Source of the DNA: Microbacterium saperdae
GTDB taxonomy: Bacteria > Actinomycetota > Actinomycetes > Actinomycetales > Microbacteriaceae
Length of the DNA stretch: 64,000 nucleotides
Assembly (NCBI RefSeq): GCF_006716345.1
Contig: NZ_VFOX01000002.1
Span: 372,001 to 436,000 of the forward strand
Reading direction: 5' to 3'
The position numbers were made by a program, and so were the translations under genes. The notes under the pieces are model-generated. The model ran no database searches and had not been told where the DNA came from. It worked only from the letters and a program-made list of their open reading frames with translations. This document shows, piece after piece, positions 11,023 to 27,240 of the stretch. Each line of letters opens with the position of its first letter. Position 1 is the first letter of the stretch.

Positions 11023-11095
11023 GGGGCCTTAGCTCAGTTGGTAGAGCGCCTGCTTTGCAAGCAGGATGTCAGGAGTTCGAATCTCCTAGGCTCCA
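11023..11095 (+). tRNA. tRNA-Ala (TGC anticodon)
   Basis: 73 bases. Acceptor GGGGCCT pairs with AGGCTCC and includes the G3:U70 identity pair of alanine tRNAs; the anticodon loop is TTTGCAA. Its last bases are the left boundary of the mobile element, and the recombinase gene on the other strand ends inside it. The tRNA is intact because the crossover lies at its very 3' end. Confidence 0.96.
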
Positions 11096-12740
11096 CCCAA
11101 AGTGTCTTACGGGAACACGCGACATCGCTAGACGTGGTGTGTTCCCGTTTCGCTTCCTTGCCTTCGTCGCCGTCCGCGTGTGCTTCGCGGAAGATCGTCG
11201 CGAACGGTTCGGCGAGGCGTGGGCGTAGTTGTTCGTCGTCGGTGATGTCGAGGCGCGTGTAGAACGCTTGGTTCGCGAGCCGCCGGTCGGCATCGTCAGA
11301 GTGGGCGTAGGCGCGGTGCGCGTCGGTGAGGAGCCGCAGCGAGTCGTGGAGGAATGCGCGCCCGCCGGTGTAGTGTTCGCTGTGCTCCGCGAGGCGACGG
11401 TTGATGTCTGCGAGGCCCGCACGGATGCGGTCTTGGTGCCGCTTCAAGGTGGGCAGGTCGATGGCGTCGGCGAAGTGCGCGGCGAGGAGCTTGTCGGATT
11501 CGGCTTCCAGGCGTGCCCGGTTCGCGGCCAGATCAGCGACTTCCTGATCCTGGCCCGCGTTGCGTTTGTCGAACGCTGCGTCCACGTCGGCGGCGAGCCG
11601 CTGATAGGTGGCGTCGCTGATCGTGATCGAGGCATAGGAGTCCGCCACGAGCCGTTCCGCGACAGCGACGGGCACGGCGCGTCTCGTGCAGTTGGTCTTC
11701 TTCGCGGCGCGGCCGGAGCACACGAAGTAGGCGTACGTGGTGCCGCGCGGGTTGGTGGCGAAGTCCAGCAGCATCCGTGATCCGCAGGTGCCGCAGTGCA
11801 GGAGCCCTTTGAGGTGGTGGGCGTGCTGAACATGCCGGGTCATCTTCGCCGTCCGCGCTTTCAGAAGTGATTGCACTTTGTCGAACAGTTCCGGTTCCAC
11901 GATCGGTTCGTGCGCGCCGGGATGCAGTGCGCCCTTGTAGCGGATCACTCCCGCGTAGTACGGGTTCGTCAGCAGTTTGTAGAGGGTGTTCTTCCCCAGC
12001 GGCTTCGAGGGGCGCTTCGGCGTCGGCACCGTCAACAAACCCCGTGCTGTCAGCTCACGCAGGAGGCCGGTGACGGAAATCTCGCCCTCCGCGTAGCGCT
12101 CGAACGCCCAGGTGATGAGCGGGGCACGATCAGGATCAACCTCGACCGTGCGCATCTCACGGCCTGCCTCATCCGTCTTGCGGACGTTGAGGTAGCCGAT
12201 GGGTGCGCGCATCGGGGTGCCACCCTGCGCGACCTTCTGCGACAACCCCTTAGTGACTTCGGTGGCGAGGTTGCGACTGTAGAACTCGGCGATGGAGGAC
12301 ATGATGCCGTGCACGAGCATCCCCGAGGGCGTGTGATCAATGGACTCGGTTGCGGAGACGAGCGTGACCCCGGCGGTCAGGAGGGCTTGGTGGATGGCGA
12401 CGTCGTCGGCGCGGTTGCGTGCGAGGCGGTCGAGCTTGTGCACGATACAGAACTGCACCCGCGTCGCCGCGATGAACGCCAGCATCTCCTGCAACCCGTC
12501 GCGGTCGGCGGAGCGTGCAGACTCCCCGGCGTCCACGAACTCCCGCACGATCCGCGCGCTCAGCTCGTCGGCCTTGCGATGGTTCGCCTCGCGCTGCGCC
12601 GGGATCGAGAACCCTTCCTCGGTGCCGCCGCGCTCGGCCTGCTCACGAGTGGAGACGCGCAGATAGGACACGGCCAGCAGCACCGGCTTGTTCTCCGCGT
12701 GTTCGTTGGTCGGCGTGAGGGTGGGAGCGGTCATGCTCAT
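11034..12740 (-). CDS. large serine recombinase (integrase) of the element
   Basis: 568 residues in the integrated form. It has a resolvase domain with catalytic Ser30 in SYLRVSTREQ, a KLDRLARN helix, a 'recombinase' domain (residues about 170-290), a zinc ribbon with Cys near 313, 316, 338 and 348, and a coiled-coil C-terminus. The start at 12740 has AAGGAG six bases upstream; the open frame beyond it is not needed. The last 20 codons run antisense through tRNA-Ala and end in its D-arm region, giving the tail EPRRFELLTSCLQSRRSTN, so the true C-terminus is replaced on integration. The excised form would be a 639-residue fusion with 26907-27182. Confidence 0.93.
   Translation of the reverse strand: MSMTAPTLTPTNEHAENKPVLLAVSYLRVSTREQAERGGTEEGFSIPAQREANHRKADELSARIVREFVDAGESARSADRDGLQEMLAFIAATRVQFCIVHKLDRLARNRADDVAIHQALLTAGVTLVSATESIDHTPSGMLVHGIMSSIAEFYSRNLATEVTKGLSQKVAQGGTPMRAPIGYLNVRKTDEAGREMRTVEVDPDRAPLITWAFERYAEGEISVTGLLRELTARGLLTVPTPKRPSKPLGKNTLYKLLTNPYYAGVIRYKGALHPGAHEPIVEPELFDKVQSLLKARTAKMTRHVQHAHHLKGLLHCGTCGSRMLLDFATNPRGTTYAYFVCSGRAAKKTNCTRRAVPVAVAERLVADSYASITISDATYQRLAADVDAAFDKRNAGQDQEVADLAANRARLEAESDKLLAAHFADAIDLPTLKRHQDRIRAGLADINRRLAEHSEHYTGGRAFLHDSLRLLTDAHRAYAHSDDADRRLANQAFYTRLDITDDEQLRPRLAEPFATIFREAHADGDEGKEAKREHTTSSDVACSRKTLWVEPRRFELLTSCLQSRRSTN
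11092..11118. other. predicted attL: crossover core plus element-side arm
   Basis: Core TCCAC at 11092-11096, then 13 bases, then the arm CGGGAACA (11110-11117). Its inverse TGTTCCCG occurs at 27154-27161 on the other element end, so in the circle the two arms flank the core as expected for a serine-integrase attP of about 50 bp. Confidence 0.6.
11109..11148. repeat. inverted repeat inside the recombinase 3' end
   Basis: Perfect 10-bp arms ACGGGAACAC (11109-11118) and GTGTTCCCGT (11139-11148) with a 20-base gap, near the left element end. The left arm is also part of the predicted attP arm, so the right arm may be an accessory recombinase site or part of a hairpin terminator reading rightwards. 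Confidence 0.6.
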
Positions 12741-13054
12741 GCGGTGCTCCTTCGACGGTGCAGCAACTCGGGTTCTTGTTCGTCTTCTACCCTGCCTCGC
12801 CGGTCTGACATCAGGCTCAGATTCTCCGGAGCTGGGAGGCCGTAAGGGTCGGGTCGGCCGTCTCGGTAGGCGTCGTAGCGGGTCTGGGTGATGTTCAGCA
12901 CCCACTCCACCAGCTTCCCCACATCCGGCTCCGCACGGCGGATCGAGCGGAGCCGAAGCACCGGATCGCCGCCTGGCCCTGACCCGAGCGCAGCCCTATC
13001 TTGCGCCGCGCGTTGGTGGCGCTGACGGGTCGGGGCTGGGGCCAGGACACTCAC
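12737..13054 (-). CDS. small hypothetical protein coupled to the recombinase
   Basis: 105 residues from a GTG start with a GAGG stretch just upstream. Its stop overlaps the recombinase start as ATGA, a strong sign of translational coupling. Basic N-terminus; a helical middle part (VGKLVEWVLNITQTRYDAYR) is the most protein-like region. I do not recognise a family. Possible roles are recombination directionality factor or regulator, but that is only position-based. Confidence 0.6.
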   Translation of the reverse strand: MSVLAPAPTRQRHQRAAQDRAALGSGPGGDPVLRLRSIRRAEPDVGKLVEWVLNITQTRYDAYRDGRPDPYGLPAPENLSLMSDRRGRVEDEQEPELLHRRRSTA

Positions 13055-13155
13055 CTCAATCTAATGCGATAGCAGATACGCCATATCAAGGTAACACACT
13101 CTTGGCGTAACGGCCATTGTTTGAGATGAATCCGTGGTTCCACTACCCTGGAAGC

Positions 13156-13851
13156 ATGAGTCAAGACGTGGAGGATGTTCCGCTGCTGGTCTTCTCCGAC
13201 CTGCCAGCGGGCTGGGTGATACCCGATCCTCCCGTGATCGCCTCTTCCGCTGAGTCGGTCGCCATTGATGCGGCGCTCAAGTATGACAAGCGGAGATACC
13301 CCACACCGGGGCTGGACGGAGAACTGCGCGGGTACAACGACGGTCGCGATGGACGTTGGTTCCTCATCGAGCATGTGCAGTCTCATACCCGTGTGCTGCT
13401 GCGGTTGCAGCGCCAGTACCTGATGCATCAGGAGCCGATGGGTGAGGTGCGGATCACGGGGATCATCTACCTGCCCGAGCAGGCCGGTGACCCGGTGGCA
13501 AGCCCGATGCTCCGCAACCTTCCCACGTCGCGGATCGAGGCGGCGATCAACCGCCGCCAGTTCGCCGTCACCGGAGTCACTCGGTTTGAGGGCGGCACCC
13601 TCACCATGCCCTCAGGCCGCGTCATGCGCGCCGAGGACGTGATGAAGCCACTCGGGAACCCGAAGCGCACCCCGGACTTCTACGAGGTTGTCGCTTTGCA
13701 GCACACCCGCCTCGTGGATGACGGGGAGGCGAATCCGACGGCGAAGATGGCGGAGCTGAGTCGGGTGCCGCTCTCGACCGCTCAGGGCTGGGTTGCTCGC
13801 GCCCGCGCCAAAGGACTGTTGCCGCCCGGAAGACGTGGACGCGCGGGGTAA
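13156..13851 (+). CDS. hypothetical protein with C-terminal helix-turn-helix-like region
   Basis: 231 residues, divergent from the recombinase operon. The N-terminal two thirds have no family I can name. The C-terminus (MAELSRVPLSTAQGWVARARAKGLL) has the spacing of a DNA-binding helix-turn-helix and ends in PPGRRGRAG, a tail common in actinobacterial mobile-element proteins. The start at 13156 is taken because TACCCT lies six bases upstream, suggesting a leaderless message. It may regulate the divergent recombinase. Confidence 0.75.
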   Translation: MSQDVEDVPLLVFSDLPAGWVIPDPPVIASSAESVAIDAALKYDKRRYPTPGLDGELRGYNDGRDGRWFLIEHVQSHTRVLLRLQRQYLMHQEPMGEVRITGIIYLPEQAGDPVASPMLRNLPTSRIEAAINRRQFAVTGVTRFEGGTLTMPSGRVMRAEDVMKPLGNPKRTPDFYEVVALQHTRLVDDGEANPTAKMAELSRVPLSTAQGWVARARAKGLLPPGRRGRAG

Positions 13852-13894
13852 CTAGCGCTGTCCGCCGTTGTTGGAGTTATTGCGGGCGTTTTCT

Positions 13895-14581
13895 CTACAG
13901 GCTCCGCCCCGGCCCCTGCGTGCCCGAGCCTGGGCGGTGCTGCCAGGGGTCATGGAACGGGTCGAGGCCGTCATCGATGCCGCTCACCGAAGTACGCTTG
14001 ACAGGTTCCGAACTACGCTTCACAGATTGCCGCCTCGGCGTGTCTTTACGGGCGTGTACGCGGGCGGCGATGTCTTCGGCGATGTAGCGGTGGCGCGGCA
14101 GGAGCTGACTGGTCGGGTAGGTCGCGGTCAGCAGGTCGATGCAGTCCTGCGCGGAGGTGTACCCGAGCCGGTTGAACAGGATCGCGGCATCGTTCAGGTC
14201 GCGCTCGTCGCGAGAGGCGTGCAGCTTCATCGCCAGCAGGTAGCTTGGCGACGGTACTTGCACGAGCAGCGATTCCGACTCGAACACGGTGCGCGGGTGA
14301 TCGTCCGCGCCGGGCAGGAACCCTTTGGCTGCGTCGTTGAGCCAGTCAGGTTCGAGCCCGTGCGGGCCGCTCATCTCTTCCGCGATCCGCCGCACTTCAG
14401 GTGCCGGTACGAATAAGGCGTCCACGTCCCGCGTCAACCGGCCCCGGTCATACGCCAACGCCATCGCCGCCCCGCCGACGACGAACAACTGCGCAGACAC
14501 CCCGGCTGCTGCGAGTCGGTCAGACAGCTCCTGGAAGAGGGCGAGCACCCCGTCAGCGTCGAGTTGCCCGCGATCGTTCAT
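13895..14581 (-). CDS. AbiEii/DUF6036-type nucleotidyltransferase (toxin-like)
   Basis: 228 residues. The nucleotidyltransferase fold is marked by VVGGAAMALAY followed by RLTRDVDALF (GG and DxD metal site), and further by LLAMKLHASRDERDLNDA, typical of DUF1814/DUF6036 enzymes. Members of this group act as toxins in AbiE and MenAT systems by modifying tRNA. The start overlaps the upstream partner (ATGA). The C-terminal 50 residues are poorly conserved in look and may be an extension. Function as a toxin is inferred. Confidence 0.82.
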   Translation of the reverse strand: MNDRGQLDADGVLALFQELSDRLAAAGVSAQLFVVGGAAMALAYDRGRLTRDVDALFVPAPEVRRIAEEMSGPHGLEPDWLNDAAKGFLPGADDHPRTVFESESLLVQVPSPSYLLAMKLHASRDERDLNDAAILFNRLGYTSAQDCIDLLTATYPTSQLLPRHRYIAEDIAARVHARKDTPRRQSVKRSSEPVKRTSVSGIDDGLDPFHDPWQHRPGSGTQGPGRSL

Positions 14582-15069
14582 GCCCTCGCCAGCGAACGGG
14601 AAGTGATGAGAATCCCGCGCCGCCGGAACGCGTCCGGGCTCTCCCGATCCGCGTCCTCACGAAAGATCACAGGAACCGCCGGATACCACGCGGTCGTGCA
14701 CCGCGACGGGTCCAGCGCCCACGCAGGGGCAGCCCACCCGTCACGGTCGGCGAGGTAGTCGGCGAGAGCTGCGAATGCCGCATCGATCTCCGCCGCACCT
14801 ACACGGGCCGGTTCGTCGGTAAACACTTCGGCGGCAAGGCTCGGGCCGCCTCGTCGCAGGGCGGAGGTGTAGTCGTCCAACGTTTGCAGGACGCCGAACC
14901 GCCAACACACGTCGAGAGGCTCTCCATCGCTGAGGAGTCGGCGGCAGTCGGCCGCGTTCTGCGCTGCCGTGTGACGCACCCCGATGCCCGGAGCGGGCGT
15001 GGCCTCGGGGGCGTCGCGGGCAGCGTCGAGCAATGCGGTAACCGAGAGCACTTCACCCTGAAACACCAT
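14578..15069 (-). CDS. partner (antitoxin-like) protein of the nucleotidyltransferase
   Basis: 163 residues. The start at 15069 is supported by AAGGAGG seven bases upstream. No helix-turn-helix is obvious. The C-terminal FRRRGILITSRSLARA is a motif I associate with genes placed just before DUF6036 nucleotidyltransferases in actinobacteria. Coupled by ATGA to the downstream enzyme. An antitoxin role follows from operon structure only. Confidence 0.7.
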   Translation of the reverse strand: MVFQGEVLSVTALLDAARDAPEATPAPGIGVRHTAAQNAADCRRLLSDGEPLDVCWRFGVLQTLDDYTSALRRGGPSLAAEVFTDEPARVGAAEIDAAFAALADYLADRDGWAAPAWALDPSRCTTAWYPAVPVIFREDADRESPDAFRRRGILITSRSLARA

Positions 15070-15408
15070 GACCACGCCTCCTTCCTCGGCCTCCATTCTC
15101 TCAGACACACCCGGAGAAGTCCCGGGATCATCGCGCGCGCCACAGCGACGCGACATCGGGGCGGAGCGCCCGATTTTCAAGTCCATAGGCACCGCCTCCA
15201 TCAACACCGATCCCTGACCCCAGCGCCGAGCAGACCGCACCCAGAAACGCTGCAACAGCAACGCTTCTCACCGCGCCCTTCGCCTGCCCTCACCTCTCGA
15301 CTCAACCGACCTTCCCACTCTCATGTAGTTGCCAATATCAGAGAGAATGAACGTATCCTAAGTGCCGTAGTTGCTGATACGCTAGATGCTCAGTGGGGCG
15401 GCGGAAGG
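15070..15408. other. gene-free interval between the nucleotidyltransferase pair and the relaxase
   Basis: About 340 bases, lower in GC towards the relaxase. It holds the promoters of two divergent operons. The inverted pair CGTATC (15352-15357) and GATACG (15376-15381) lies 28 bases before the relaxase start region and is a possible oriT or operator, but without further support. Confidence 0.35.
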
Positions 15409-18400
15409 ATGGTGGTCGAGATGCATGGCGGCGTGATTCCGTTCCGGGGAACCGGGGCTGATGCGCTGCGTTATGTCGAGGCCGACCGCTCCCGCGCCGA
15501 CGACTACTACTTGGGCGCGGAAACCTCGGTGGCACAGTTCACGGCCCTGGACGGGTCGGGTGCGGTGACCGCTGAGCTGAGTCTTGACCCTGCGGGGTAT
15601 GCGGGGTGGGTGGACTGGGTGAACCCGCTCACGGGCGAGTCGATGGGGAAGCCCCGCCGCGCGGGGTCGGATCGGCGGGGCTCGCCCCGGTTCATGGAAA
15701 TGGTCATCAACACACCAAAGTCACTGTCGATCGCGGCGGCGCTGCACCCGGAGGTCTCCGACGCCTTGGATGCCGCCCAGCAGGATGCCCTCGCGGAGAT
15801 TCGGCGCTGGCTCGCCCGCCACTCCGTGACTCGCGTTGGTCCGTTGGGGGCGCAGGAGGTCGTGCCCATCGAGCAAATGCAGGTCGTCGGGATCACGCAC
15901 CGCACGAGTCGGGCGGGTGATCCGCACCGGCACATTCATATGCAGATCGGCACCCGCGTCTTCGCGGCAGGCAAGTGGCGGGGCCTGTTCACCGCCGCCT
16001 TGTTCAAGCAGCAAGGAGCGATCCGCGCCCTCGGCACCGCCGTGATCGCCGCCAGCCCCGAGCTGGTTGACGTGCTTGACCGGCATGGCCTGACCCTCGA
16101 CCCCGCCACTGGCGAAGTGGTCGAGTTGCAGCCGTTCAATGCGTTGATGAGCAAGCGCGGTGCGCAGGTGGGTAAGAACCTGGAACGCCTCGAAGCCGAC
16201 TGGGAGAAAGATCACCCCGGCGAGAGTATGGGGCCGGTCGTCGCGACACGCCTGCGAGCGGAGGCATGGGCGCATGAACGTCCCGCGAAGAAGCCGACCA
16301 CTTTGGCTGAGGAAGCCGGATGGGTGACGGAGTTGCGCGAGGCCGGATACAACCCCGAGGCTCTGCGTCGCCTCGCGCCGCGTGCATCGGTGGGGTTGGA
16401 TGACCTGAGCGTGCAGGAGGTCGCCTCTCGCACGCTGGATCGTTGCGCCGCCGCTACATCGGCGTGGACGGCGCACACGGTGACCGAGCACGCGATGCGG
16501 ATCATGACCGAGCACGGCGTGACCGCTGCCCCCGAGGAGGTGCGCGAGTTCGTGCAGGTTGCAACGGCGCTGGCGCTGGAAGACTGCTTCACGGTCCTTC
16601 CCCCCGGCGCGCCACGGCTGGAGCATGTGGCGCATCTGACGAGCGTGCACGTCATGCAGGTCGAGACCGAGCTGCGCGACCTCATCACCGCCCGCGTACC
16701 CGAACGGGAACCGAAGCACCCGGACGTGCAACGCCTCGCAGAAGCTGTTGGACTCGACACCGGACAGACCGAAGCAGCGGCAGCGGTCACGTCCGCTGAT
16801 CCGTTGGTGATCGTGGAAGGGGCAGCGGGGAGCGGGAAGACGACGATGCTTGCCACCGCCATCCAAGCCGCGAATGAGCGGGGTGGTGTGGTGCGGGTGG
16901 TTGCGCCGACGAAGAAGGCCGCCGATGTCGCACATCAGGCCCTCGGTGTGCCTGCTGATTCGGTGGCCGCGCTCGTCCATGCCCACGGATACCGCTGGAA
17001 CGCCGACGGCGTATGGATACGCCTCGCCATCGGTGACATCGACCCGGAGACCGGCCGCGCATACACCGGCCCACCGGAGGCAACGCGGCTACTTCCGGGT
17101 GGGCGGATCGTGGTGGATGAGGCAGGGATGCTCGACCAGGACAGTGCGCTCGCCCTGTTCACCGTCGCCGCAGAGCACGGCGCAACCCTTGCCCTGATCG
17201 GCGACCGCGCGCAACTCCCTGCCGTGGGGCGCGGCGGTGTACTCGACATGGCCGCGCAGATTCGGGGCCGCACCATCGACATGTCAGAGGTGCATCGCTT
17301 CACCGACCCCGTCTACGCCGAACTCTCCATCCGGTTGCGGGGCCGGGATGATCCCGCCGCGATCTTCGAGCAGCTACAGAACCTGGGTCTGATCCAGTTG
17401 CACGCCGACACCGACGAACTGCACGAGCACATCGCCACGCAACGGGGCGACAGTCAGGCAGTCACCGTCGCCACCAATGACGAAGCCACCCGGTTGAACG
17501 CCCGCATCCGCGACGAGCGCGTGCACGCCGGAGCCGTAGACGACGCCGCGACCACGACCGGCAGCGACGGCCTCCCCATCGGGCGGGGCGACCTGATTCA
17601 GACGCGGAAGAACGACACCAGCCTGGGGGTGGCGAACCGGCAGCAGTGGATCGTGCAGCACGTCGAGGAAGACGGCACCGTCTGGGCGGTCGAGGCAGAG
17701 AACGGCCGCAAGCGAGACCACACCGTGCGCATGCCCGCCGCGTATGTTGCCGAGCATGCGCACCTGGCTTATGCCTCCACCGCCTACGGGGTGCAGGGGG
17801 TGACAGTTCCCGTGTCGCACACGATCCTCACCGACGCGATGAGCGGACCTGCCGTATACGTCGGCATGACCAGAGGCAAGGACGAGAACCGGCTGCACAT
17901 CATCGCCGAGAGCCTGCCGGAGGCGCGGGAGCAGTTCGTTGAGGCGTTGGAACGCGACCGCGCCGACCGTGGCCTCACCGACGCAACCCAGCAAGCAGCG
18001 GAGGCCGTGCGTGGGTTGGTCGATGACGGCCCGGTGAAGGTCGTACGCTCCGAGATAGCAGCCCTCGAACAGCTTGCCGAACAAGCCGAGGCCAGTGCCG
18101 CGCGGTGGCAGCAGGCCAGTGATGGCCTGGAAGAGCTGCACGCCCGGCAACGGTTCGAGCGCGAGCAGGCGGCTGAGGCCAACGGTACGGCGAGACAGCA
18201 GCTCGAACTCGTACGCGCCAAGGTCGCCGAACCACTCATCGCGCAGGCACGCGCCGCGTTGACGGAGTGGCAGTCTGCTGACGCTGCCGAGCAGGTCGCA
18301 AGCGCGAAGGTACGCACGGCGGGGAGGTTCAAGAAGCGCCGCGCCACCGCTGAGCACGGCACCGCCCAGACCGTCGCACGTGATGCGAAACGACGCCTTG

Positions 18401-18876
18401 TGAAGGGGTGGGGCGAGCCTGCCCGATGGGGCGAGGCTCAAGCTGATTGGGTTGAGCGCGTCACTGGGCCCCAGGTCAACGCTGACCCCCGTGTGGTCGA
18501 GGCAGAGCAACGGCGTGCCGCCACAGGGCGGGCCCTTCACGCTGCGATCGAGCCGAACCCGTGGCCGACCATCGGCGTCTACGCCCGCGTCTTCGGCGAC
18601 GACGCGGTGAGGAAGAACCCCGGTGCATACGTCAACGCCCGACCCGCACGCCAGGCCGAAGACGCGACCCGCACCGCACAGCAGGCCCGCGCCGAAGCCG
18701 AGACGCTACGCGCCCTGACCCCGTCCGAAGCGATCGAACGGATCGCGCAGACTCGCGCAGCCGAAGAAGCAGAACGGGAAACCGCCCGCATGCTCGCAGA
18801 ACGCGGACGCCAGCTCCGTGCCTCCCGCTCGGCCCATAGCGGTCCGAGCCGCGAGGGGCCGAGCCTGGGCCGGTGA
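15409..18876 (+). CDS. MobF-family conjugative relaxase (TrwC/TraA-like)
   Basis: About 1155 residues. The TrwC relaxase domain starts with paired Tyr in DDYYLG (about residue 33), and the metal-binding His triad is PHRHIHMQIG (about 170). The SF1 helicase follows: Walker A EGAAGSGKTTM (about 471), Walker B VVDEAGML, GDRAQLPAVGRGG, and the UvrD-like VYVGMTRGKDENR near 810. A long Glu/Ala-rich coiled-coil tail closes it. It nicks oriT and unwinds the strand during mobilization. ATG at 15409 or 15421 are both possible; the longer open frame upstream lacks protein-like sequence. Confidence 0.93.
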   Translation: MVVEMHGGVIPFRGTGADALRYVEADRSRADDYYLGAETSVAQFTALDGSGAVTAELSLDPAGYAGWVDWVNPLTGESMGKPRRAGSDRRGSPRFMEMVINTPKSLSIAAALHPEVSDALDAAQQDALAEIRRWLARHSVTRVGPLGAQEVVPIEQMQVVGITHRTSRAGDPHRHIHMQIGTRVFAAGKWRGLFTAALFKQQGAIRALGTAVIAASPELVDVLDRHGLTLDPATGEVVELQPFNALMSKRGAQVGKNLERLEADWEKDHPGESMGPVVATRLRAEAWAHERPAKKPTTLAEEAGWVTELREAGYNPEALRRLAPRASVGLDDLSVQEVASRTLDRCAAATSAWTAHTVTEHAMRIMTEHGVTAAPEEVREFVQVATALALEDCFTVLPPGAPRLEHVAHLTSVHVMQVETELRDLITARVPEREPKHPDVQRLAEAVGLDTGQTEAAAAVTSADPLVIVEGAAGSGKTTMLATAIQAANERGGVVRVVAPTKKAADVAHQALGVPADSVAALVHAHGYRWNADGVWIRLAIGDIDPETGRAYTGPPEATRLLPGGRIVVDEAGMLDQDSALALFTVAAEHGATLALIGDRAQLPAVGRGGVLDMAAQIRGRTIDMSEVHRFTDPVYAELSIRLRGRDDPAAIFEQLQNLGLIQLHADTDELHEHIATQRGDSQAVTVATNDEATRLNARIRDERVHAGAVDDAATTTGSDGLPIGRGDLIQTRKNDTSLGVANRQQWIVQHVEEDGTVWAVEAENGRKRDHTVRMPAAYVAEHAHLAYASTAYGVQGVTVPVSHTILTDAMSGPAVYVGMTRGKDENRLHIIAESLPEAREQFVEALERDRADRGLTDATQQAAEAVRGLVDDGPVKVVRSEIAALEQLAEQAEASAARWQQASDGLEELHARQRFEREQAAEANGTARQQLELVRAKVAEPLIAQARAALTEWQSADAAEQVASAKVRTAGRFKKRRATAEHGTAQTVARDAKRRLVKGWGEPARWGEAQADWVERVTGPQVNADPRVVEAEQRRAATGRALHAAIEPNPWPTIGVYARVFGDDAVRKNPGAYVNARPARQAEDATRTAQQARAEAETLRALTPSEAIERIAQTRAAEEAERETARMLAERGRQLRASRSAHSGPSREGPSLGR

Positions 18877-19722: not shown

Positions 19723-21166
19723 GGCTCTCCTGACTGTTCCGTGGGTCATGCTCGGTTGGGGAGGGTGGGCCGGTGGCCGCCGAGGTTGAGCGTGGCGAGG
19801 GCGATGAGCGCGTCGGGTGAGCGGAACCCGAAGGCGACGCGGGTGATGAGCCGGATCTTGGTGTTGACCGATTCGATGCGCCCGTTGGAGAGGCCGTGCT
19901 CGATCGCGGCGAGGATCGATGCCCTGTGCTTCACGATGCGGCGCTGCAGGTTCACGAACGCGGGGATGCGGGAGCGGCGCGCCCAGCCGATCCACTTCTG
20001 TAGCGCGGCGTCGGCGTCGGCGTGGCCGAGCTGGAACACCAGGCGGAGGCCTTCTTTGAGGAGGTAGGCGCGGTGCAGTCTCGGATCGGTCTTCGCGATC
20101 CACGCGAGCTTCTCGGCCTGCCTGTCGGTGAGGTTGTCCGGGTTCTTCCAGAGCGCGTACCGGGCGCCCTTCAAGCCTCGGGCCCGGTCGGACGCCGGTC
20201 GTGTCGGAGCGTCGTGGCGGGGCCGGCCGACGCTCCGGGCCGGCTCGGTGCGCGCTTGCCGGCGGGCGTCGTTCCACGCGCCTCGGCGAACCTCGTCCAG
20301 TGCCTCGGTGGCCCACTTCACGACGTGGAACGGATCCGCGCAGCGGATCGCGTTCGGGCACTTCTCCTCGACGACGGCACCGATCCAGTCCGCCCCGTCC
20401 GCGGACACATGCGTGATCTGCGCGCACCGCCCCTGCCCGGATGCTTCCAGCGCGTCGAAGAAGCCGCCCAGGGTGGCCTTGTCCCGGCCGGGCGCGGCCC
20501 AGACCAGCCGTCCGGTGTCGTGATCCACGACGATCGTGAGGTAGCGGTGGCCGCGTTTGTAGCTGATCTCGTCGATCCCGATCCTTCTCAGCCCCGCGAA
20601 CCGGTCGTGCAGCTTCTCGGTGTCGCCCCAGACCCGGGTGATGATCGATCCGACCGTGCGCCACGCGATCCGCATCAGCTCGCACGCTGCGGTCTTCGAG
20701 CATTGCGTGGCCAGCCACGCGACCTGCTCATCGAACGTGATCGTGTGCCCGGCCGCGTGCCGAGCCCACGGCACCGCCCGCACCGTTGCGCCGTGCTCGG
20801 AGCAGAACACCCTGGGCGCGTCCGCTTCAAGGTAGACCGGGATCGTGCCCAGATCCAGAGCCCGCCACCGGCGTCGGCCTTCGCCCGGGTCATACCGCGG
20901 GCAGCGCCGCAGGCACCGCCCGCACCGACTCGACGCTGACCGTACCGGCCGCACGTGAGCGATCAGCACCCCCTCGTCCTGGTCGAACTCGACCTCTTCA
21001 ACGACTGTCTTCTCGACGCCCAGTAAGGCGCACCATAGAGTGGCATTCCGCACGCCGTTCTCCGCACTCTGGTTCCTGTTTCTTGACAATCCAGAAACCT
21101 AGACGAGAGAACGGTGTGCGCCCGTTTCAGACCCACTCGACCACCCACGGAAGAGTCACAAGAGCC
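19723..21166 (-). mobile_element. insertion sequence, ISL3 family, complete (1444 bp)
   Basis: Terminal inverted repeats at 19723-19744 and 21145-21166 match in 19 of 22 positions (ends GGCTCT, internal TGACT and TTCCGTGG). It contains one transposase gene on the minus strand. Its right flank (CAAAATCT) differs from its left flank, as expected if it is one arm of the composite unit. Confidence 0.88.
19746..21089 (-). CDS. ISL3-family transposase
   Basis: 447 residues, the usual family length. N-terminal zinc-binding Cys cluster (RCGRCLRRCPRY), then the DDE catalytic region: RIGIDEISYKRGHRYL, HVSADGADWI and the Glu in NGRIESVNTKIRLITR. The frame is intact, so this copy may be active. Confidence 0.93.
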   Translation of the reverse strand: MSRNRNQSAENGVRNATLWCALLGVEKTVVEEVEFDQDEGVLIAHVRPVRSASSRCGRCLRRCPRYDPGEGRRRWRALDLGTIPVYLEADAPRVFCSEHGATVRAVPWARHAAGHTITFDEQVAWLATQCSKTAACELMRIAWRTVGSIITRVWGDTEKLHDRFAGLRRIGIDEISYKRGHRYLTIVVDHDTGRLVWAAPGRDKATLGGFFDALEASGQGRCAQITHVSADGADWIGAVVEEKCPNAIRCADPFHVVKWATEALDEVRRGAWNDARRQARTEPARSVGRPRHDAPTRPASDRARGLKGARYALWKNPDNLTDRQAEKLAWIAKTDPRLHRAYLLKEGLRLVFQLGHADADAALQKWIGWARRSRIPAFVNLQRRIVKHRASILAAIEHGLSNGRIESVNTKIRLITRVAFGFRSPDALIALATLNLGGHRPTLPNRA

Positions 21167-21276
21167 CAAAATCTTGCGGTTTCCACAGCCTTGCCGTCTT
21201 GCCATGCCTTCTGCGTGCCACTCGCGACGGAGATCGCTTCGGTCCCGTTGATGGGCACGAGTTGCACTAGGAGCAT
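21167..21276 (-). pseudogene. N-terminal fragment of an unknown gene cut by the IS end
   Basis: The minus-strand frame MLLVQLVPINGTEAISVASG... ARFW reads cleanly up to base 21167 and then runs into the IS inverted repeat. It looks like the first 37 residues of a real protein captured with the passenger segment. No family named; the start at 21276 lacks a good ribosome site. The rest of the 21167-21470 interval shows nothing else. Confidence 0.35.
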
Positions 21277-21470
21277 TTTACTCGTCGCAGCGGCAGAAGA
21301 GCTCCTTGCCAGCGATACGGTCTGGGCAAGGGTACCGAGGGAGAGCGCTTGACGACGAGGCCTTCGGTGTTGCTCAGCCGTTCTTCCGACCCCGCGCGTG
21401 GTGGCGGCAACGGGAGGAACTTCCAACTCGCGGTCGCCCAGCGCGGATGAGCCCACGCCCTCGTGGCTGG

Positions 21471-22433
21471 CTAGTTCCGGTCGAGGATCACGAAGATCGG
21501 CCTGTGATCAGAGCTCTCAGACCATCGCGTGCCCGGTGCATCGAGGACGCCGAACCAGGTGGGGAGCCAGTCGTCGCCGGCGAAGACGTGGTCGATCTGT
21601 GCTCCGAGTTGGGCGGGTAGTAGTGCGGGCCAGGTTCCCGATTCCGGCTGACCGAGCGTCGCCGCGACCTCCGAGCATGATCCGAGCCGGTCGCTTCCGA
21701 GATTTGCGAGCGTCGCGTTGAAGTCACCGACTGCTATGGCGTCTCCGCGGTCGCACCGATCCCGTACCCACGCGACATGTTGCCGCCAGAGATCGGCTCC
21801 CTCTGTGAGCATGGGGCGTTGCAGGTGGGCAACAGTGAGAAAAGGGGCATCGTGGCGTTCAGGCACGAGATAGATTCCGGCCCACGGAGGTGTGTCACCG
21901 TTGTGCATGGTGTATTTCCCCAACCGGTCAGCTATCAGAATCGTGGCCGAGGAGCCGTCCCACCCGTACACGCTCATCTCATTCGCCTCGGCAAAGGTCG
22001 CGAATCGACCCTCTGCGGTGCTCGTGAAATACTCCGGGAGCACGATGATGTCTGGGCGCGTTTGCTCCACGAGAACCATCAGGTCGTCGTCGACATCGCG
22101 TTGATCGGTGTTCCACGACAGAATCCTCAGTTCATCTTCGGAGTGGGCGGCGGGGACGTCACTGGCCGTACCTCCACCCAAAGTGATCAGGAACGGCAGG
22201 ACAAGCAGCGCCGTGAGCACCGCGACGATAGCCGCCGCCCTGCGCCCGCTCATAACCAGAAGAGATATCGCGATCAGGGCTACGGCAATTGCCGCGACGA
22301 GGAGCGTCAACGACCGAAAAGCCACCAGCGCGAACACGAGGGGTGACGCCGTACCCCTACCTAGGATCGGGAGAGTTAGCGCGGCGAGCACGATGACCCC
22401 CGCGACAACGACGCCGGCTGTGGCGATCTTCAC
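21471..22433 (-). CDS. EEP-family (endonuclease/exonuclease/phosphatase) membrane protein, transposon passenger
   Basis: 320 residues: three hydrophobic segments in the first 95, then an extracellular-side EEP domain with the family motifs LRILSWNTDQ, PDIIVLPEYF, AVGDFNAT, GAQIDHVFA and SSDHRPI carrying the metal/phosphate ligands. GTG start at 22433 with AGGGGAGG upstream. Substrate could be nucleic acid, a phospholipid or a sugar phosphate; the membrane anchor favours an outside substrate. All catalytic motifs are intact, so it is a working passenger gene. Confidence 0.88.
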   Translation of the reverse strand: MKIATAGVVVAGVIVLAALTLPILGRGTASPLVFALVAFRSLTLLVAAIAVALIAISLLVMSGRRAAAIVAVLTALLVLPFLITLGGGTASDVPAAHSEDELRILSWNTDQRDVDDDLMVLVEQTRPDIIVLPEYFTSTAEGRFATFAEANEMSVYGWDGSSATILIADRLGKYTMHNGDTPPWAGIYLVPERHDAPFLTVAHLQRPMLTEGADLWRQHVAWVRDRCDRGDAIAVGDFNATLANLGSDRLGSCSEVAATLGQPESGTWPALLPAQLGAQIDHVFAGDDWLPTWFGVLDAPGTRWSESSDHRPIFVILDRN

Positions 22434-22578
22434 TCGTCTGCCTCCCCTTCAACAGCATCCGCAGTTCGGCGATCGGGCGTGTACGCCGACGCATCGCGAC
22501 TCGTGCCTCATAATGGTAGGGCGCGAACCCTGGCGCTTCCCTGACTGCTGGCAGCGGGTCATCCGGGCCTATCGCCAC

Positions 22579-22947
22579 CGGAGCAGAACACCCTGGGCGC
22601 GTCCGCTTCAAGGTAGACCGGGATCGTGCCCAGATCCAGAGCCCGCCACCGGCGTCGGCCTTCGCCCGGGTCATACCGCGGGCAGCGCCGCAGGCACCGC
22701 CCGCACCGACTCGACGCTGACCGTACCGGCCGCACGTGAGCGATCAGCACCCCCTCGTCCTGGTCGAACTCGACCTCTTCAACGACTGTCTTCTCGACGC
22801 CCAGTAAGGCGCACCATAGAGTGGCATTCCGCACGCCGTTCTCCGCACTCTGGTTCCTGTTTCTTGACAATCCAGAAACCTAGACGAGAGAACGGCGTGC
22901 GCCCGTTTCAGACCCACTCGACCACCCACGGAAGAGTCACAAGAGCC
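22579..22947 (-). mobile_element. right-end fragment of the same IS (369 bp)
   Basis: Copy of 20798-21166 with a single difference (C at 22894 for T at 21113). It keeps the right inverted repeat and the first 97 or so transposase codons but no catalytic region. It serves as the right end of the composite transposon. The 145 bases before it (22434-22578) hold the EEP promoter region and a possible tail of a truncated gene. Confidence 0.9.
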
Positions 22948-22955
22948 GGAAGTTT
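22948..22955. repeat. 8-bp target-site duplication, right copy (GGAAGTTT)
   Basis: Matches 19715-19722; the codons AAG TTT are shared by both halves of the broken gene. Confidence 0.85.
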
Positions 22956-23250
22956 TGGCCACTTCTGCTCGCGCTTGCGGGCGTAGCACTGATTCTCGCT
23001 GGAGCAGGATGGGCAATCTACGAGGGGTACGCATCGGACGCGGAGATGCGGGCTGGCCGTGGCCTTCCTGCATTTGTTATGGGCGCAGTGGGCCTTGCCT
23101 GCTTGCTCAGTAGCGTCGTCGCAAGCATCAGAGGCTCACAGAGGCCACCCAAGCCACCTGAGTAAGCGACATGCCCTTCTGTTGCGGACGGAGATGGACG
23201 TCGCCTCCGCATAGTCTCCGTGTCTATCCAGACGTGGAAACGAGAGGTTC

Positions 23251-23304
23251 GCGAGCCGCGGTGGTGACCAACCCACCGTGCGCATAGGTACCGCCGCGGC
23301 TCGC
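23251..23304. repeat. large inverted repeat before the ECF sigma promoter
   Basis: Perfect 11-bp arms GCGAGCCGCGG (23251-23261) and CCGCGGCTCGC (23294-23304), with a second small stem CGGTGG/CCACCG nested inside. It ends 13 bases before the TGTCACA box. It could be a terminator for the upstream operon, an oriT-like structure or a regulatory RNA; there is no T-run. Confidence 0.65.
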
Positions 23305-23316
23305 GCACCCCTTCGT

Positions 23317-23343
23317 TGTCACACTTCGCCGTTGCGGGGCAAC
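23317..23343 (+). promoter_or_regulatory. candidate ECF-sigma promoter 2 (TGTCACA-N16-CAAC), autoregulatory
   Basis: TGTCACA at 23317-23323 and CAAC at 23340-23343, 56 bases before the sigma gene start. Its position ahead of the sigma gene suggests autoregulation. Confidence 0.6.
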
Positions 23344-23399
23344 AGAGAAGATAGAAGACGGTGTCTGGCTGGGAGCTGCATGGAAAGGGAGGAGGTGGC

Positions 23400-23903
23400 G
23401 TGAAGAAGTTCTCGACGTTCTTCCGGGAGAACTACTCCTTTGTCGTCGGTGTTGCCGAACGTCGCCTCGACTCCGTTCAGGATGCGGAGGAGGTTGCGAC
23501 GGAGGCGTTCCATCTCGCGTGGCAGCGGTACCAGGCGGGCGAGCCGCTGAGTGTGCCGTGGCTGTACGGGGTGGTGCGGAACCTGATCGGAAACGAGTAT
23601 CGGCGGCGCGGTCGGCGGGCCTCGCTGCAACGCCAACTCAACCAAGATTTCGCGTTGAGTATCCCGGTCTCCGAAGACCTGTATGCGGATGTGCGGGACG
23701 CGGTCGAACGTCTCCCACGGATGCACCGGGAGGTGTTGAAAATGACCTACTGGGAACGCCTCACTGCGCGGGAGATCGCCGCTGTACTCGACGTCAACAG
23801 CGCCGTCGTGCGGGCCAGGTTGATGCGAGCCAGGCGTCTCCTGCGCACGGCGCTGAGCGACATCCAAGATCGGACCGATAGGGAGGTGCCCACTCGTGAA
23901 TGA
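23400..23903 (+). CDS. ECF-type RNA polymerase sigma factor (element-borne)
   Basis: 167 residues. Region 2 is MKKFSTFFRENYSFVVGVAE... EVATEAFHLAWQRY with VPWLYGVVRNLIGNEYRR. Region 4 is LPRMHREVLKMTYWERLTAREIAAVL with a helix-turn-helix. The GTG at 23400 is chosen for AGGAGG five bases upstream; the open frame begins 39 bases earlier. It overlaps the next gene by 8 bases. Close in design to the sigma gene at the end of the window (63463-63939). Confidence 0.92.
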   Translation: MKKFSTFFRENYSFVVGVAERRLDSVQDAEEVATEAFHLAWQRYQAGEPLSVPWLYGVVRNLIGNEYRRRGRRASLQRQLNQDFALSIPVSEDLYADVRDAVERLPRMHREVLKMTYWERLTAREIAAVLDVNSAVVRARLMRARRLLRTALSDIQDRTDREVPTRE

Positions 23904-24891
23904 TCTGCTGAGCACTCTGCTGCACGCCGCGGACCCTGGGACGGTGAAGCGCGGTGACCCGCTCTCCGAGCGCGGTCTGCGGGAGCTTGCCGCCTGCGAA
24001 GCTCGAGAAGAAGCTACGGCACGCTCGTCACGACGCACGTCGATCTTTTCCGCCCGTCGTTCGGTGCGGTGGCCGGTGCCTTTGGCTGCCGGGGGTGCGT
24101 TCCTTGTCCTGCTGTTTGTCGCGGTCTTCGCGGTGACAAGTGTGCTACGTCCCGTTCCGGCGGTCGCGGCGACCCCGCCGTTGCTTGAACTGGCGTCGGT
24201 TCCGCAGTCGGCTCCTGAGCTGTTGAAGGAGATGGAGAGTATGCGCCGCGCAGGGGAGCCGCCCGCCCGCACAATCCGGGTACAGAGTTGGGCGTTGAAC
24301 ACCTCGATCGCCGAGGACGGCACGATCGAGTCTTCGGTGGTGGAGCCGCAGTGGAGCGAAACGACCGTCCTCCCCGATGGGAGTATGCATTATCGGCTCA
24401 TCGCTGCCGAACCGTTCCCCGGGCAGGACGATGACGGTCTGCCCGAGCCGGGCACGGTGCTCGTGGACGAAGTGTTCCTCCCCGGCGACTGGGATTCCCC
24501 GGTGGAAGAAGAACCTCCCACCCTTGTTGGTGACGTGGCCGAGTACCTGGTCGCGTTGACCGGCGAGGACACGCTCACCGCGGGGCAGACGATCCGTGAG
24601 ATCAGCACGATCGTGTCGAACACCCTCCTCACCCCCGGGCAGGAAGCCGCACTCATCGGCTATCTGAGCACGCTGGGTGGCATCCAGGTATCGGGTTCCA
24701 CGACGGACCGGCTCGGACGGACCGGGATCGTGTTCAGCGCGACCGACCGTGACCCCGGGCAGTTCGAAGACCGGCTGATCATCTCCCCGAGCAGCGGGCG
24801 CATCCTCGCCGTCGAAACCCTCTACATCGGCTCCGCCCGTACCGACATCGAATCCCCGGCCGTGATCGACTACACCGCCTGGGAACGCTAA
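23896..24891 (+). CDS. CU044_5270-type membrane protein, probable anti-sigma partner
   Basis: 331 residues: about 55 cytoplasmic residues, one transmembrane helix (PLAAGGAFLVLLFVAVFAVT), then a large extracytoplasmic domain ending in VSGSTTDRLGRTGIVFSATD and a VIDYTAWER tail. This architecture is that of CU044_5270 proteins, which are encoded next to ECF sigma factors and are thought to restrain them in response to an outside signal. Homologous to 62480-63466, sharing TTDRLGR and the V-I-x-Y-T-x-W ending. Confidence 0.85.
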   Translation: MNDLLSTLLHAADPGTVKRGDPLSERGLRELAACEAREEATARSSRRTSIFSARRSVRWPVPLAAGGAFLVLLFVAVFAVTSVLRPVPAVAATPPLLELASVPQSAPELLKEMESMRRAGEPPARTIRVQSWALNTSIAEDGTIESSVVEPQWSETTVLPDGSMHYRLIAAEPFPGQDDDGLPEPGTVLVDEVFLPGDWDSPVEEEPPTLVGDVAEYLVALTGEDTLTAGQTIREISTIVSNTLLTPGQEAALIGYLSTLGGIQVSGSTTDRLGRTGIVFSATDRDPGQFEDRLIISPSSGRILAVETLYIGSARTDIESPAVIDYTAWER

Positions 24892-24941
24892 CCAACCCGA
24901 CCCCTCGCTACACCATCATCGATAGAACGGATACCCGATCC

Positions 24942-25442
24942 ATGCACCGTCCCCGCACGCTTCTCGCGACCGCTGCACTCGTCCTCGTTGCGCTGATCAA
25001 TCCGACCGCCGCGTCGGCCACGACACCACCGGCCACTGCCATGCAGGAGCGTGTGGAGGACATCATCGACGAGTACGGCGGCGTGCAGACTGGATGGAAT
25101 GAGGTGGCCTGGGACGAAGGCGCGATCATCCTCACCATCGACCCGGACGACAGCACTCTGGCGGGAACGGTGAGCGCGAGGGCGGAAGTTGCGCGGGACA
25201 ACTGCGCGGCCGGGAAATACTGCGCGTACGGTAAGGCCGGTTACGGCGGAAACAAGCTCACCTACTCCGCTTGCCCTGCAACCCACACCTCCTTCAGCAT
25301 CATCGGGTCCCCGCGTTCCATCAAGAACAACCGCACCTCCGGCACTGTCAAGGCATACAACGGCAGCACCCTGAAAACCACGCTGACCGCAGGCAACGGC
25401 AACTCCAACACCACCGGCGTCACCAAGATCACCTGCACCTAA
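24942..25442 (+). CDS. secreted peptidase inhibitor I36-like protein
   Basis: 166 residues. Signal peptide MHRPRTLLATAALVLVALINPTAASA, a linker, then a compact Cys domain (NCAAGKYCAYGKAGYGG, YSACPATHT, SIKNNRTSGTVKAY, TKITC) with the look of the I36/SMPI-like beta-gamma-crystallin fold. Four Cys can form two disulfides. It follows the anti-sigma-type gene by 50 bases and is probably in the same transcript. Confidence 0.83.
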   Translation: MHRPRTLLATAALVLVALINPTAASATTPPATAMQERVEDIIDEYGGVQTGWNEVAWDEGAIILTIDPDDSTLAGTVSARAEVARDNCAAGKYCAYGKAGYGGNKLTYSACPATHTSFSIIGSPRSIKNNRTSGTVKAYNGSTLKTTLTAGNGNSNTTGVTKITCT

Positions 25443-25484
25443 CACCCGACCGGGGTTCCGACTGACATCACACGGGTGGATCGT

Positions 25485-25517
25485 CGTTCCAACACCACGT
25501 GGACCATCGTTGGGACG
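25485..25517 (+). terminator. possible hairpin after the I36 gene
   Basis: Arms CGTTCCAAC (25485-25493) and GTTGGGACG (25509-25517), 9 bp with one G-U pair, 42 bases after the stop. No T-run; weak evidence. Confidence 0.4.
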
Positions 25518-25543
25518 CCGCTGTGAAGGGAATCGTAATCCGA

Positions 25544-25570
25544 TGTCACATTCGGAACGTTCGCGGAAAC
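25544..25570 (+). promoter_or_regulatory. candidate ECF-sigma promoter 3 (TGTCACA-N16-AAAC)
   Basis: TGTCACA at 25544-25550, then 16 bases, then AAAC at 25567-25570, 55 bases before the DUF6973 gene. Matches the two other copies in box and spacing. Confidence 0.6.
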
Positions 25571-25625
25571 AACCAGAGTGAAGAGTCTGCGCACCCAGCA
25601 GGCTCCGTCACGAAAGAGGAAAACC

Positions 25626-26300
25626 ATGCGTGTGTCCCGCCTTGTTCGCTCGGCTGCCGGTGTCGTCGCCGCCGCCGCCCTCGTATTCACGGTGGTGTCG
25701 CCAGCTGCGGCCGCCGATGACGATCAGCAACAGCTCGTGGAAGAGGTCTTCGCCTCCGATGTCCCGCTGGAGACATTCGACGCTCTGAGCTACGACGAGC
25801 AGAGCCTGGTCATCGACGCCGTTACCCGCGACGGGCTGCCCGCCGATGTCACCGAAGCTGATGTCTTCGTCGGTGAAAGCACGAGCGTTCAGCCGTTCGC
25901 GTCGGGGTACAACGACCTTGTGATGAACGTGGTCGAGATGCTCGCATGCGTCCAGTTCGTCGACCTCGTCTCCTGCAATATCGCCAAGGGCAATGCGGAT
26001 ACGGCCGCCGCGGATGCAGCTAACCGGTTCTCGTCCACCTCGCTGCACAACGGTAAAGGCGACGCCTACCGGCATTGCTACTGGAACGCCCTGATGACCC
26101 GCCACATCGGCGCCAACGCGGCGATGAAGATCGCCGCGAACCACGAGTCTCTCAGTTCCGGCCCAGCGAAAGAGAAGACCATGGACACCTACAACAACGC
26201 CAAGGGCCGTACCGCAGGCAGCAACGCCAGCAGCGACTCCGCCGCCCGCAGCACCTGCTACACCTGGGCCAACAACGGCACCCTCCGCACCCTGAAGTAG
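25626..26300 (+). CDS. secreted DUF6973-type protein
   Basis: 224 residues. Start at 25626 after AAAGAGGAAAACC. Signal peptide ending in PAAAADD, an acidic pro-region (residues about 30-95), then the core with HNGKGDAYRHCYWNALMTRHIG, which I match to DUF6973 (invariant His-Asn-Gly, Asp, Arg-His, Trp). The clustered His/Asp/Arg suggest a catalytic site, and the fold is found in some secreted toxins, but the activity is not known to me. Four Cys sit in the mature part. Followed by a strong hairpin and a lipoprotein gene. Confidence 0.82.
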   Translation: MRVSRLVRSAAGVVAAAALVFTVVSPAAAADDDQQQLVEEVFASDVPLETFDALSYDEQSLVIDAVTRDGLPADVTEADVFVGESTSVQPFASGYNDLVMNVVEMLACVQFVDLVSCNIAKGNADTAAADAANRFSSTSLHNGKGDAYRHCYWNALMTRHIGANAAMKIAANHESLSSGPAKEKTMDTYNNAKGRTAGSNASSDSAARSTCYTWANNGTLRTLK

Positions 26301-26306
26301 TCGCCG

Positions 26307-26341
26307 GTGCCGGACCACCGCGACGGACAGTGGTCCGGCAC
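26307..26341 (+). terminator. strong hairpin between the DUF6973 and lipoprotein genes
   Basis: Perfect 12-bp stem GTGCCGGACCAC / GTGGTCCGGCAC with an 11-base loop, then TCTTCC. It begins 7 bases after the DUF6973 stop and ends 22 bases before the lipoprotein start, so it probably sets a high ratio of the first product to the second. Confidence 0.75.
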
Positions 26342-26362
26342 TCTTCCAGAAAGGACTCGGCT

Positions 26363-26815
26363 GTGAGGATGAAACACGGCACCATGCTGACGGCAACGAC
26401 AACCATCGCCCTCACTGTCACGCTCACCGGGTGCACCTCAAACGACAGCGACCTCGCCGCGCAGGTGCTAGACGCCATCCCGACGACCTCCGCAACGCAG
26501 GTGACGCTTGAGCTTGCCGAGATCCGTCCCGGCGGCTGGGACAGCTACCTGGTTGTCTGTCCCTACGAGACTCTCGAGTCCGTAAATGAACGGCTCGGGT
26601 TTACCTGGGACGACGGCCCCGACCTCACCCTCGATGATGCACACCAAATCCTCGTCCTCACCGATGCAGATGCCATCGAGGAATATGCCACGCTTGACCG
26701 CAACCGGATCGACCTCTGCACAACAGAACAATGGTCGCTGACCGAAAAAGCGACCCCCATCACTCTGATCGAACAAGATGGCGTATGGACAGGTTCGCCC
26801 CGCAACGATCGTTGA
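26363..26815 (+). CDS. small lipoprotein
   Basis: 150 residues. GTG at 26363 with AAAGGA seven bases upstream. A signal peptide is followed by the lipobox TLTGC, then an acidic domain with two further Cys and a C-terminal ITLIEQDGVWTG. No family named. Being a surface lipoprotein directly after a secreted DUF6973 protein, it could be its partner or immunity factor; this rests on position only. Confidence 0.8.
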   Translation: MRMKHGTMLTATTTIALTVTLTGCTSNDSDLAAQVLDAIPTTSATQVTLELAEIRPGGWDSYLVVCPYETLESVNERLGFTWDDGPDLTLDDAHQILVLTDADAIEEYATLDRNRIDLCTTEQWSLTEKATPITLIEQDGVWTGSPRNDR

Positions 26816-26906
26816 AGTTGTTAAGCTGAGACAGTGGCGAACGCCAACAGGCTCAGCTCCACAGTTACGTCTGTTCCAGAACGTCGGTCGAGGCTGTCAA
26901 CGACTG

Positions 26907-27182
26907 TCATCGAGTCTTGGCCCAGACCGTACCTCGGTGAACGCCATACTGCTTCGTCAACATGAGCACGCTGACGCCGTCCGCGCGGGCTGTTCGCATA
27001 GCGTGCACTTCGCTGTCCGTAAGCCGTGTTCGAGGTCGTTTCTTTGGTTCCGCAGATGCCCCGATCAGGGCGTCATCGGCATCATCCTCGGACTCGGCAT
27101 CTCCGCGTAGGCCTTGATTCCATGCGGAAACCAGCTTCTGAACCCGTGGTCGCCTGTTCCCGCAGCGTACCATTGCTTCCAC
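26907..27182 (-). CDS. stranded C-terminal helix-turn-helix part of the recombinase
   Basis: From the core codon GTG GAA the frame reads VEAMVRCGNRRPRVQ... and ends in a clear helix-turn-helix, LTDSEVHAMRTARADGVSVLMLTKQYGVHRGTVW, like the C-terminal domain of resolvases. No ribosome site precedes the only near ATG (27171-27173), and the longer frame (to 27218) starts inside a terminator hairpin. Joining element ends at TCCAC puts it in frame behind recombinase residue 549. I read it as the recombinase's own C-terminus, silent while integrated; it could instead be a small free-standing regulator. Confidence 0.72.
   Translation of the reverse strand: MEAMVRCGNRRPRVQKLVSAWNQGLRGDAESEDDADDALIGASAEPKKRPRTRLTDSEVHAMRTARADGVSVLMLTKQYGVHRGTVWAKTR
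27153..27182. other. predicted attR: element-side arm plus crossover core
   Basis: Arm TGTTCCCG (27154-27161), 16 bases, core TCCAC (27178-27182). Together with 11092-11118 it gives an approximately symmetric 52-bp attP centred on the TC of the core. Confidence 0.6.
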
Positions 27183-27203
27183 ACTGTGTTGAGACAGTTT
27201 GAT

Positions 27204-27240
27204 CAAGGCTTCGAGCATCGCTCGGGGCCTTTTTCTTTTC
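27204..27240 (+). terminator. strong terminator, probably the original one of the tRNA-Ile/tRNA-Ala operon
   Basis: 12-bp stem AAGGCTTCGAGC / GCTCGGGGCCTT (two G-U pairs), 3-base loop, then TTTTCTTTT. It reads rightwards, yet no rightward gene ends in the 389 bases before it. In the empty chromosome it would lie about 22 bases after tRNA-Ala. Confidence 0.85.

Follow-up and report, generated by a model that had tools for sequence, protein, structure and literature searches.

The element and its split recombinase gene

We examined one integrated copy of an element in a 64,000-nt stretch of the Microbacterium saperdae genome (NZ_VFOX01000002.1), which we call the window and whose numbering is used throughout. 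The element is bounded by two copies of the 5-bp sequence TCCAC, the first of which is the 3' end of a tRNA-Ala gene, and at that end it carries a large serine recombinase gene that runs antisense into the tRNA gene (Table 1). The core is short, with 67 plus-strand copies of TCCAC across the window. In two of three same-genus regions compared, we find an uninterrupted tRNA-Ile/tRNA-Ala locus reading tRNA-Ala...GGCTCCACACTGTGTTGAGACAGTT, with identities of 224/245 and 208/223 across the join to the sequence beyond 27182; the match to the third region is limited to 30 nt. Because these two empty sites join tRNA-Ala to the sequence beyond 27182, we place the element at 11092-27182 and regard TCCAC, despite its shortness, as the true junction. 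A first-pass annotation of this DNA had picked out the same two TCCAC copies and had named a differing empty site as one of the observations that could overturn its proposal; both relatives show the identical junction.

The recombinase starts at the ATG at 12740, preceded by GAAGGAG, and has the Resolvase, Recombinase and zinc-ribbon domains of a serine integrase, all above the Pfam cut-offs. It scores 105.5 bits against the CcrB family profile, below the cut-off of 900 for CcrB/DsiB-type recombinases. The C-terminal 19 of its 568 residues are antisense to tRNA-Ala; the first-pass annotation had the length right and counted 20 antisense residues. At both TCCAC copies the minus-strand codon is GTG, followed by G (GTG/G), in identical phase. 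Joining the element ends gives a frame that is open for 694 codons counted from an upstream GTG and for 639 codons from the ATG at 12740, composed of 549 recombinase codons and a 90-codon tail from the far end of the element. The shared phase and the 639-residue fusion had both been predicted, and both hold on the joined sequence.

For a serine integrase, a short attP is expected in which an inverted repeat, not necessarily perfect, flanks the crossover. When the element ends are joined, a perfect 8-bp repeat of this kind, TGTTCCCG-33 nt-CGGGAACA, forms with the core at its centre. The arms of this putative attP are split between the two element ends, and a pattern for the joined arms found 0 matches in the integrated window, as expected.

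Split recombinases and detached tails in relatives

A phmmer search with the joined protein matched 4727 proteins, of which the best 120 were listed, the named relatives being nearly all actinobacterial records. Interruption of the recombinase gene by attachment-site recombination explains why 107 of these best 120 end in a motif resembling antisense tRNA, as called by a loose pattern; 8 run into helix-turn-helix (HTH) tails (P0021, P0027, P0040, P0048, P0058, P0087, P0094 and P0097) and 5 have neither ending. At the genome level, the recombinase frame ends antisense in a tRNA gene or a transfer-messenger RNA (tmRNA) gene at 54 of 68 related loci, with five ending at a contig end and nine otherwise. 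The targets of the 54 are tRNA-Ala (40), tRNA-Val (8), tRNA-Lys (3), tRNA-Met (1), tRNA-Glu (1) and tmRNA (1). A strict count, with the tRNA no more than 25 nt from the match end, gives 48/68, the remaining six matches being divergent or partial and ending sooner. Another set, which overlaps the first in part, comprises the best 60 loci from two genome searches, the window itself among them, at identities as low as 48%; here the figure is 54/60 under a loose limit. The proposal that attP lies inside the recombinase gene and that integration replaces the C-terminus is supported here and extends to the whole family. The filler that replaces the tail varies in length with the tRNA and its flank, from 19 residues here to more than 300 in some relatives.

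We searched for tails in 39 genomes carrying 40 of the 68 loci. Weak matches included, a 90-residue probe with one HTH matched in 35/39 genomes and a probe of about 160 residues with two HTHs in 21/39. Sixty of the 101 listed tail places were examined and 59 classified, a Leucobacter contig being treated separately. An in-phase GTG/G start is found in 51 of the 59 tails and in 39/40 of the 90-residue type; the rest have another core or align poorly. Thirty of the 40 short tails share a contig with the recombinase. In all 30 of these linked cases the tail lies at the opposite element end on the recombinase strand, with the recombinase always downstream, at a distance of 4.9-19.8 kb (median 11.6 kb). 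The same host probably provides another example. It has a second recombinase, 52% identical, that ends antisense in tRNA-Arg, and 44 kb upstream on that strand lies a tail of the two-HTH type; aligned by eye, the join shows a TGC core in phase and the repeat TTGGAAC/GTTCCAA. This region (host contig C1, 1937349-1981300; L207 and L239) is probably a second element of about 44 kb with the split-recombinase layout, its core, GTGC by eye, differing from that of the window element.

The tail is modelled as a three-helix HTH (helices at 55-66, 71-78 and 82-89) with a predicted local distance difference test (pLDDT) score of 87-94 for the block. Modelled alone, the window tail has a mean pLDDT of 68, its HTH part scores about 90, and the HTH is the same as that of the relative P0087. 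The first-pass annotation had called this a resolvase-type HTH, and the helical fold is confidently modelled; the family assignment fares less well. A Pfam search with the window tail alone gave no match and HTH_7 matches weakly in P0087 (E 0.03), the best hit of a PDB sequence search had an E of 0.19, and Foldseek with the tail model returned nothing under E 0.001, its weak matches including resolvase structures. In the P0087 model, a long helical hairpin at 377-473 corresponds to the coiled-coil feature of large serine recombinases, the core runs to about 516, confidence is low over residues 519-593 and the HTH occupies 598-635; with a predicted template modelling score (pTM) of 0.33, the relative placement of the domains is uninformative. 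The junction falls at about residue 543, so the predicted cut position is a low-confidence linker between the recombinase core and the three-helix HTH, and integration would remove only an appended module.

The detached tails are under purifying selection. Among 33 short tails unfused to a recombinase (528 pairs, NG86 method), the median ratio of nonsynonymous to synonymous substitution (dN/dS) is 0.31 and pN is below pS in 528/528 pairs; given this median, the tails are selected as protein.

Full-length genes do occur, as the first-pass annotation had anticipated, and those with visible surroundings are tandem chimeras rather than free circles: the upstream recombinase carries the tail of the next element. 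For instance, in Leucobacter sp. wl10 the element that comes after a full-length recombinase has a recombinase of its own, about 50% identical, which ends antisense in tRNA-Val; the tail of the full-length recombinase is the end of this second element. In Acidipropionibacterium jensenii, a 666-codon recombinase-plus-tail frame (16658-18526) precedes a recombinase (28285-29793) that ends in tRNA-Ala. An in-frame recombinase of another subfamily lies upstream of 8/59 tails, one of these calls resting on a 26-residue match. Fused places are rare. A search of 396 genomes of the order, 67 with a match and two candidate places scored in each, listed three in which the recombinase runs into the tail (G611, with a stop; G427, at 32% identity; and G484); in G623 the match begins 8 residues before the core and contains a stop, and none of the remaining recombinase matches extends past residue 558, with the core located at 545. 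The genus search confirmed one fused place (G878).

Among 13 database proteins with the window's tail type, 10 have recombinase domains (precomputed Pfam) and P0126 matches a recombinase end; for these 11 recombinases, identity to the query over the matched region, including the tail, is 47-60%. Other full-length database proteins combine different recombinase and tail subfamilies. These combinations fit tandem chimeras and, because tails reassort (see below), would also fit circles of reassorted elements. Full-length proteins were accordingly dropped as proof of circles, since those with visible surroundings are tandem chimeras. The other two of the 13 proteins carry the window's tail type in different contexts: P0130 (353 aa) has a tyrosine integrase domain in frame with it, perhaps from an element inserted beside another tRNA element, and in P0133 it is joined to another domain.

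The two halves of the gene are not inherited together. Across 28 linked pairs (31 including the window, less 3 whose recombinase matches were short), the identities of recombinases and of their tails show no correlation (Mantel r = -0.003, p = 0.50). The controls do correlate: r = 0.46 (p = 0.0003) between recombinase halves, 0.16-0.64 (p = 0.05 for the lowest) between each of six 90-column recombinase segments and the rest, and 0.48 between tail halves. We conclude from this difference that tails have been reassorted between elements, and exchange while the gene halves sit at opposite ends is the simplest reading. Separately, in Kineosphaera limosa a window-type recombinase (L048) is linked to a two-HTH tail (L169) 10.5 kb away, likely a reassorted element.

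Possible roles of the split

Based on these data, we propose, with a probability of roughly 0.7, that the family carries attP inside its own serine-recombinase gene, between the core and a predicted HTH tail, and that integration detaches the tail; the circle and the role of the tail are the inferred parts. The attachment site would separate a predicted complete recombinase core from a predicted DNA-binding module. In the integrated state the core ends antisense in the tRNA gene and the tail lies at the far element end. In the circle the gene would be whole and the 639-residue enzyme made, which likely uses its tail for work at attP, most simply by favouring or stabilising integration. After integration the tail would be lost, leaving a bare core with a filler set by the tRNA and its flank, so that integration would be self-limiting and excision would depend on other factors. 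Insertion of a second element on the tRNA side of the first gives the first recombinase the newcomer's tail, as seen in assembled genomes. Because integration places the gene halves at opposite element ends, they can reassort between elements; their lost co-inheritance shows such reassortment, for which this is a probable route.

Several observations weigh against this proposal. No tRNA is called at the recombinase frame end in 9/68 loci. Six of these are divergent (43-52% identity); the others are a tandem (L045), a gene that is only partial (L073) and a locus (L033) where the end is similar but no tRNA is called. A weak correlation with the tail (r = 0.15, p = 0.025) is seen for one of the six recombinase segments. 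Ten of 32 detached tails have a candidate start with a 4-mer resembling a Shine-Dalgarno site, compared with 3 and 2 in the other frames, and separate translation of the tail in some elements is possible. P0087 is the sole close recombinase with the same tail type among the matches listed, and its 4.3-kb contig fits a circle or a tandem alike. The records searched yielded neither a circular form nor an attP. Searches of plasmid, phage and viral collections for full-length copies gave 0 records covering 80% of the query, one of them had no match at all, and a pattern search gave 8 stretches, none confirmed. The circular P. freudenreichii elements LT604882 and LT618784, named in PMC5644110, lie outside these records.

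In a less likely suicide model, activity simply requires the tail: integration would disable or impair the enzyme, and excision of the element would need a full-length enzyme from a tandem neighbour or in trans. Archaeal suicidal integrases are so described in the passages on them in PMC8371274, and tandem neighbours do recomplete the recombinase gene. However, the truncated protein retains all three Pfam domains of a serine integrase and, judging from P0087, its core is predicted to fold without the tail, unlike the archaeal split of the catalytic part. According to the same passages, the SSV-type integrases have attP in the integrase gene, which integration splits into two inactive parts with the catalytic domain in one; chimeras between related elements are discussed, and suicidal integrases are called exclusive to archaea (PMC8371274). 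The recombinases described here share the position of attP inside the integrase gene, as deduced from attL, attR and the empty sites. They differ in being bacterial serine recombinases instead of archaeal tyrosine recombinases, and in keeping the catalytic, recombinase and zinc-ribbon domains and losing only the appended HTH tail.

The tail might instead keep the circle circular, as an inhibitor or a module resembling a recombination directionality factor (RDF) that blocks attP x attB until a signal overrides it. We regard this as improbable. In the portion of PMC5737554 that concerns them, synthetic integrase-RDF fusions lower attP x attB recombination, and a joined tail is expected only when attP exists; the tail, however, is a predicted HTH without a match to a named family in Pfam, PDB or Foldseek. 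Those fusions are engineered, whereas the tail here is natural and expected only in the joined state. Because an artificially fused module can change the direction of the serine-integrase reaction (PMC5737554, same portion), an effect of the predicted tail on direction is plausible and the tail possibly helps to set it. We favour a tail that promotes integration, because the complete enzyme should be made precisely while attP is present.

A still weaker candidate, very unlikely in our view, is that the detached tail acts by itself as a small regulator produced in the integrated state alone. The ten starts mentioned above speak for it, five of the start sites found being the core GTG itself. 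Against it, no such start is found in the other 22/32 tails, the window included; methionine occurs at tail residue 3 in 23/32 tails; and tail conservation begins at the core, with the DNA upstream of the core varying between elements. A promoter scan around attR found none. Separate translation as a general rule was dropped in view of the 22 tails. Finally, a chance in-frame join or decaying relic, to which a core of merely 5 bp might point, was dismissed given the conserved phase in 51/59 tails, the selection on tails and the similar attP arms in relatives.

Returning to the split gene as proposed, we suggest more tentatively, and with slightly less than even confidence, that the attachment site serves as an in-frame joint for domain shuffling and that elements in a stack regulate one another's recombinases by way of exchanged tails. 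Each integration would strip a DNA-binding module, each tandem insertion would pass a module from the neighbour to the enzyme upstream, and modules would be reassorted by recombination along the split element.

The closest published text, alongside the archaeal suicidal integrases, is a remark on the Dehalococcoides ssrA islands, in a section of PMC3146451. There, the 3' end of the serine recombinase gene dsiB overlaps attL, the island itself containing no stop for it, and the gene is suggested to be perhaps fully functional only on the circle or beside an island holding the 3' fragment. In that section the remark comes without a defined tail domain, and the target is ssrA rather than a tRNA; here a tail, its predicted HTH, selection, attP arms, tandem chimeras and reassortment are described in actinobacteria. 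In the integration-dependent immunity of mycobacteriophage BPs, as presented in part of PMC4557955, attP also lies within an open reading frame (ORF) and integration shortens the C-terminus; that switch acts on a repressor whose short form is active, whereas the gene affected here is the recombinase. A full-text literature search, judged by titles and abstract openings and with subscription papers mostly outside its coverage, found no bacterial recombinase family with attP inside its own gene. In this widespread family, whether the gene contains an additional, predicted DNA-binding domain depends on the state of the DNA. Such a built-in coupling of reaction direction to integration state would bear on a central question for serine integrases. 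Integration of serine recombinases into tRNA genes is called rare in a passage of PMC3218068, and the family leads towards natural integrases that act at the 3' ends of several tRNAs.

Other genes of the element

Table 1. Features of the integrated element and its target in the window.
Feature	Position	Strand	Basis
Integrated element, about 16.1 kb, TCCAC-bounded	11092..27182		Empty site in two relatives
tRNA-Ala (TGC), integration target, 3' end rebuilt at attL	11023..11097	+	ARAGORN
attL core TCCAC, minus strand GTG/GA, codon V549	11092..11096		Sequence and empty sites
Large serine recombinase, integrated form, 568 aa	11034..12740	-	Pfam Resolvase, Recombinase, Zn_ribbon_recom
attP arm CGGGAACA, recombinase side	11110..11117		Sequence; similar arm in relatives
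105-aa ORF directly upstream of recombinase, ATGA stop/start overlap, possible partner protein	12737..13054	-	tblastn
MobF/TrwC relaxase-helicase, true start probably later in ORF	14401..18876	+	Pfam TrwC; NCBIfam MobF above cut-off
Detached 90-residue tail and stop, C-terminal HTH (predicted)	26907..27179	-	Homologous tails start at same core; HTH model
attP arm TGTTCCCG, tail side	27155..27162		Sequence; similar arm in relatives
attR core TCCAC	27178..27182		Sequence and empty sites
Terminator-like hairpin beyond attR, presumably the host tRNA-Ala's own	27205..27231	+	Sequence

The 105-aa ORF has tblastn matches at 39 or more of the 68 loci, nearly all just upstream of the recombinase, with many spanning just 42-67 residues; that it encodes a directionality or partner protein is a guess. 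With a recombinase and a MobF relaxase at a tRNA site, the element may be an integrative and mobilizable element, a class that lacks a full transfer system. An ISL3-family transposase lies at 19746-21089, with a shortened second copy at about 22357-22878 (300 nt identical). The segment 23361-26300 contains a gene for an extracytoplasmic function (ECF) sigma factor, then an ORF without a Pfam match, for which an anti-sigma role is a guess, and beyond this pair I36 inhibitor-like and DUF6973 ORFs. Lastly, an AbiEii-like nucleotidyltransferase at 13895-14581 on the minus strand is possibly half of a toxin-antitoxin pair.

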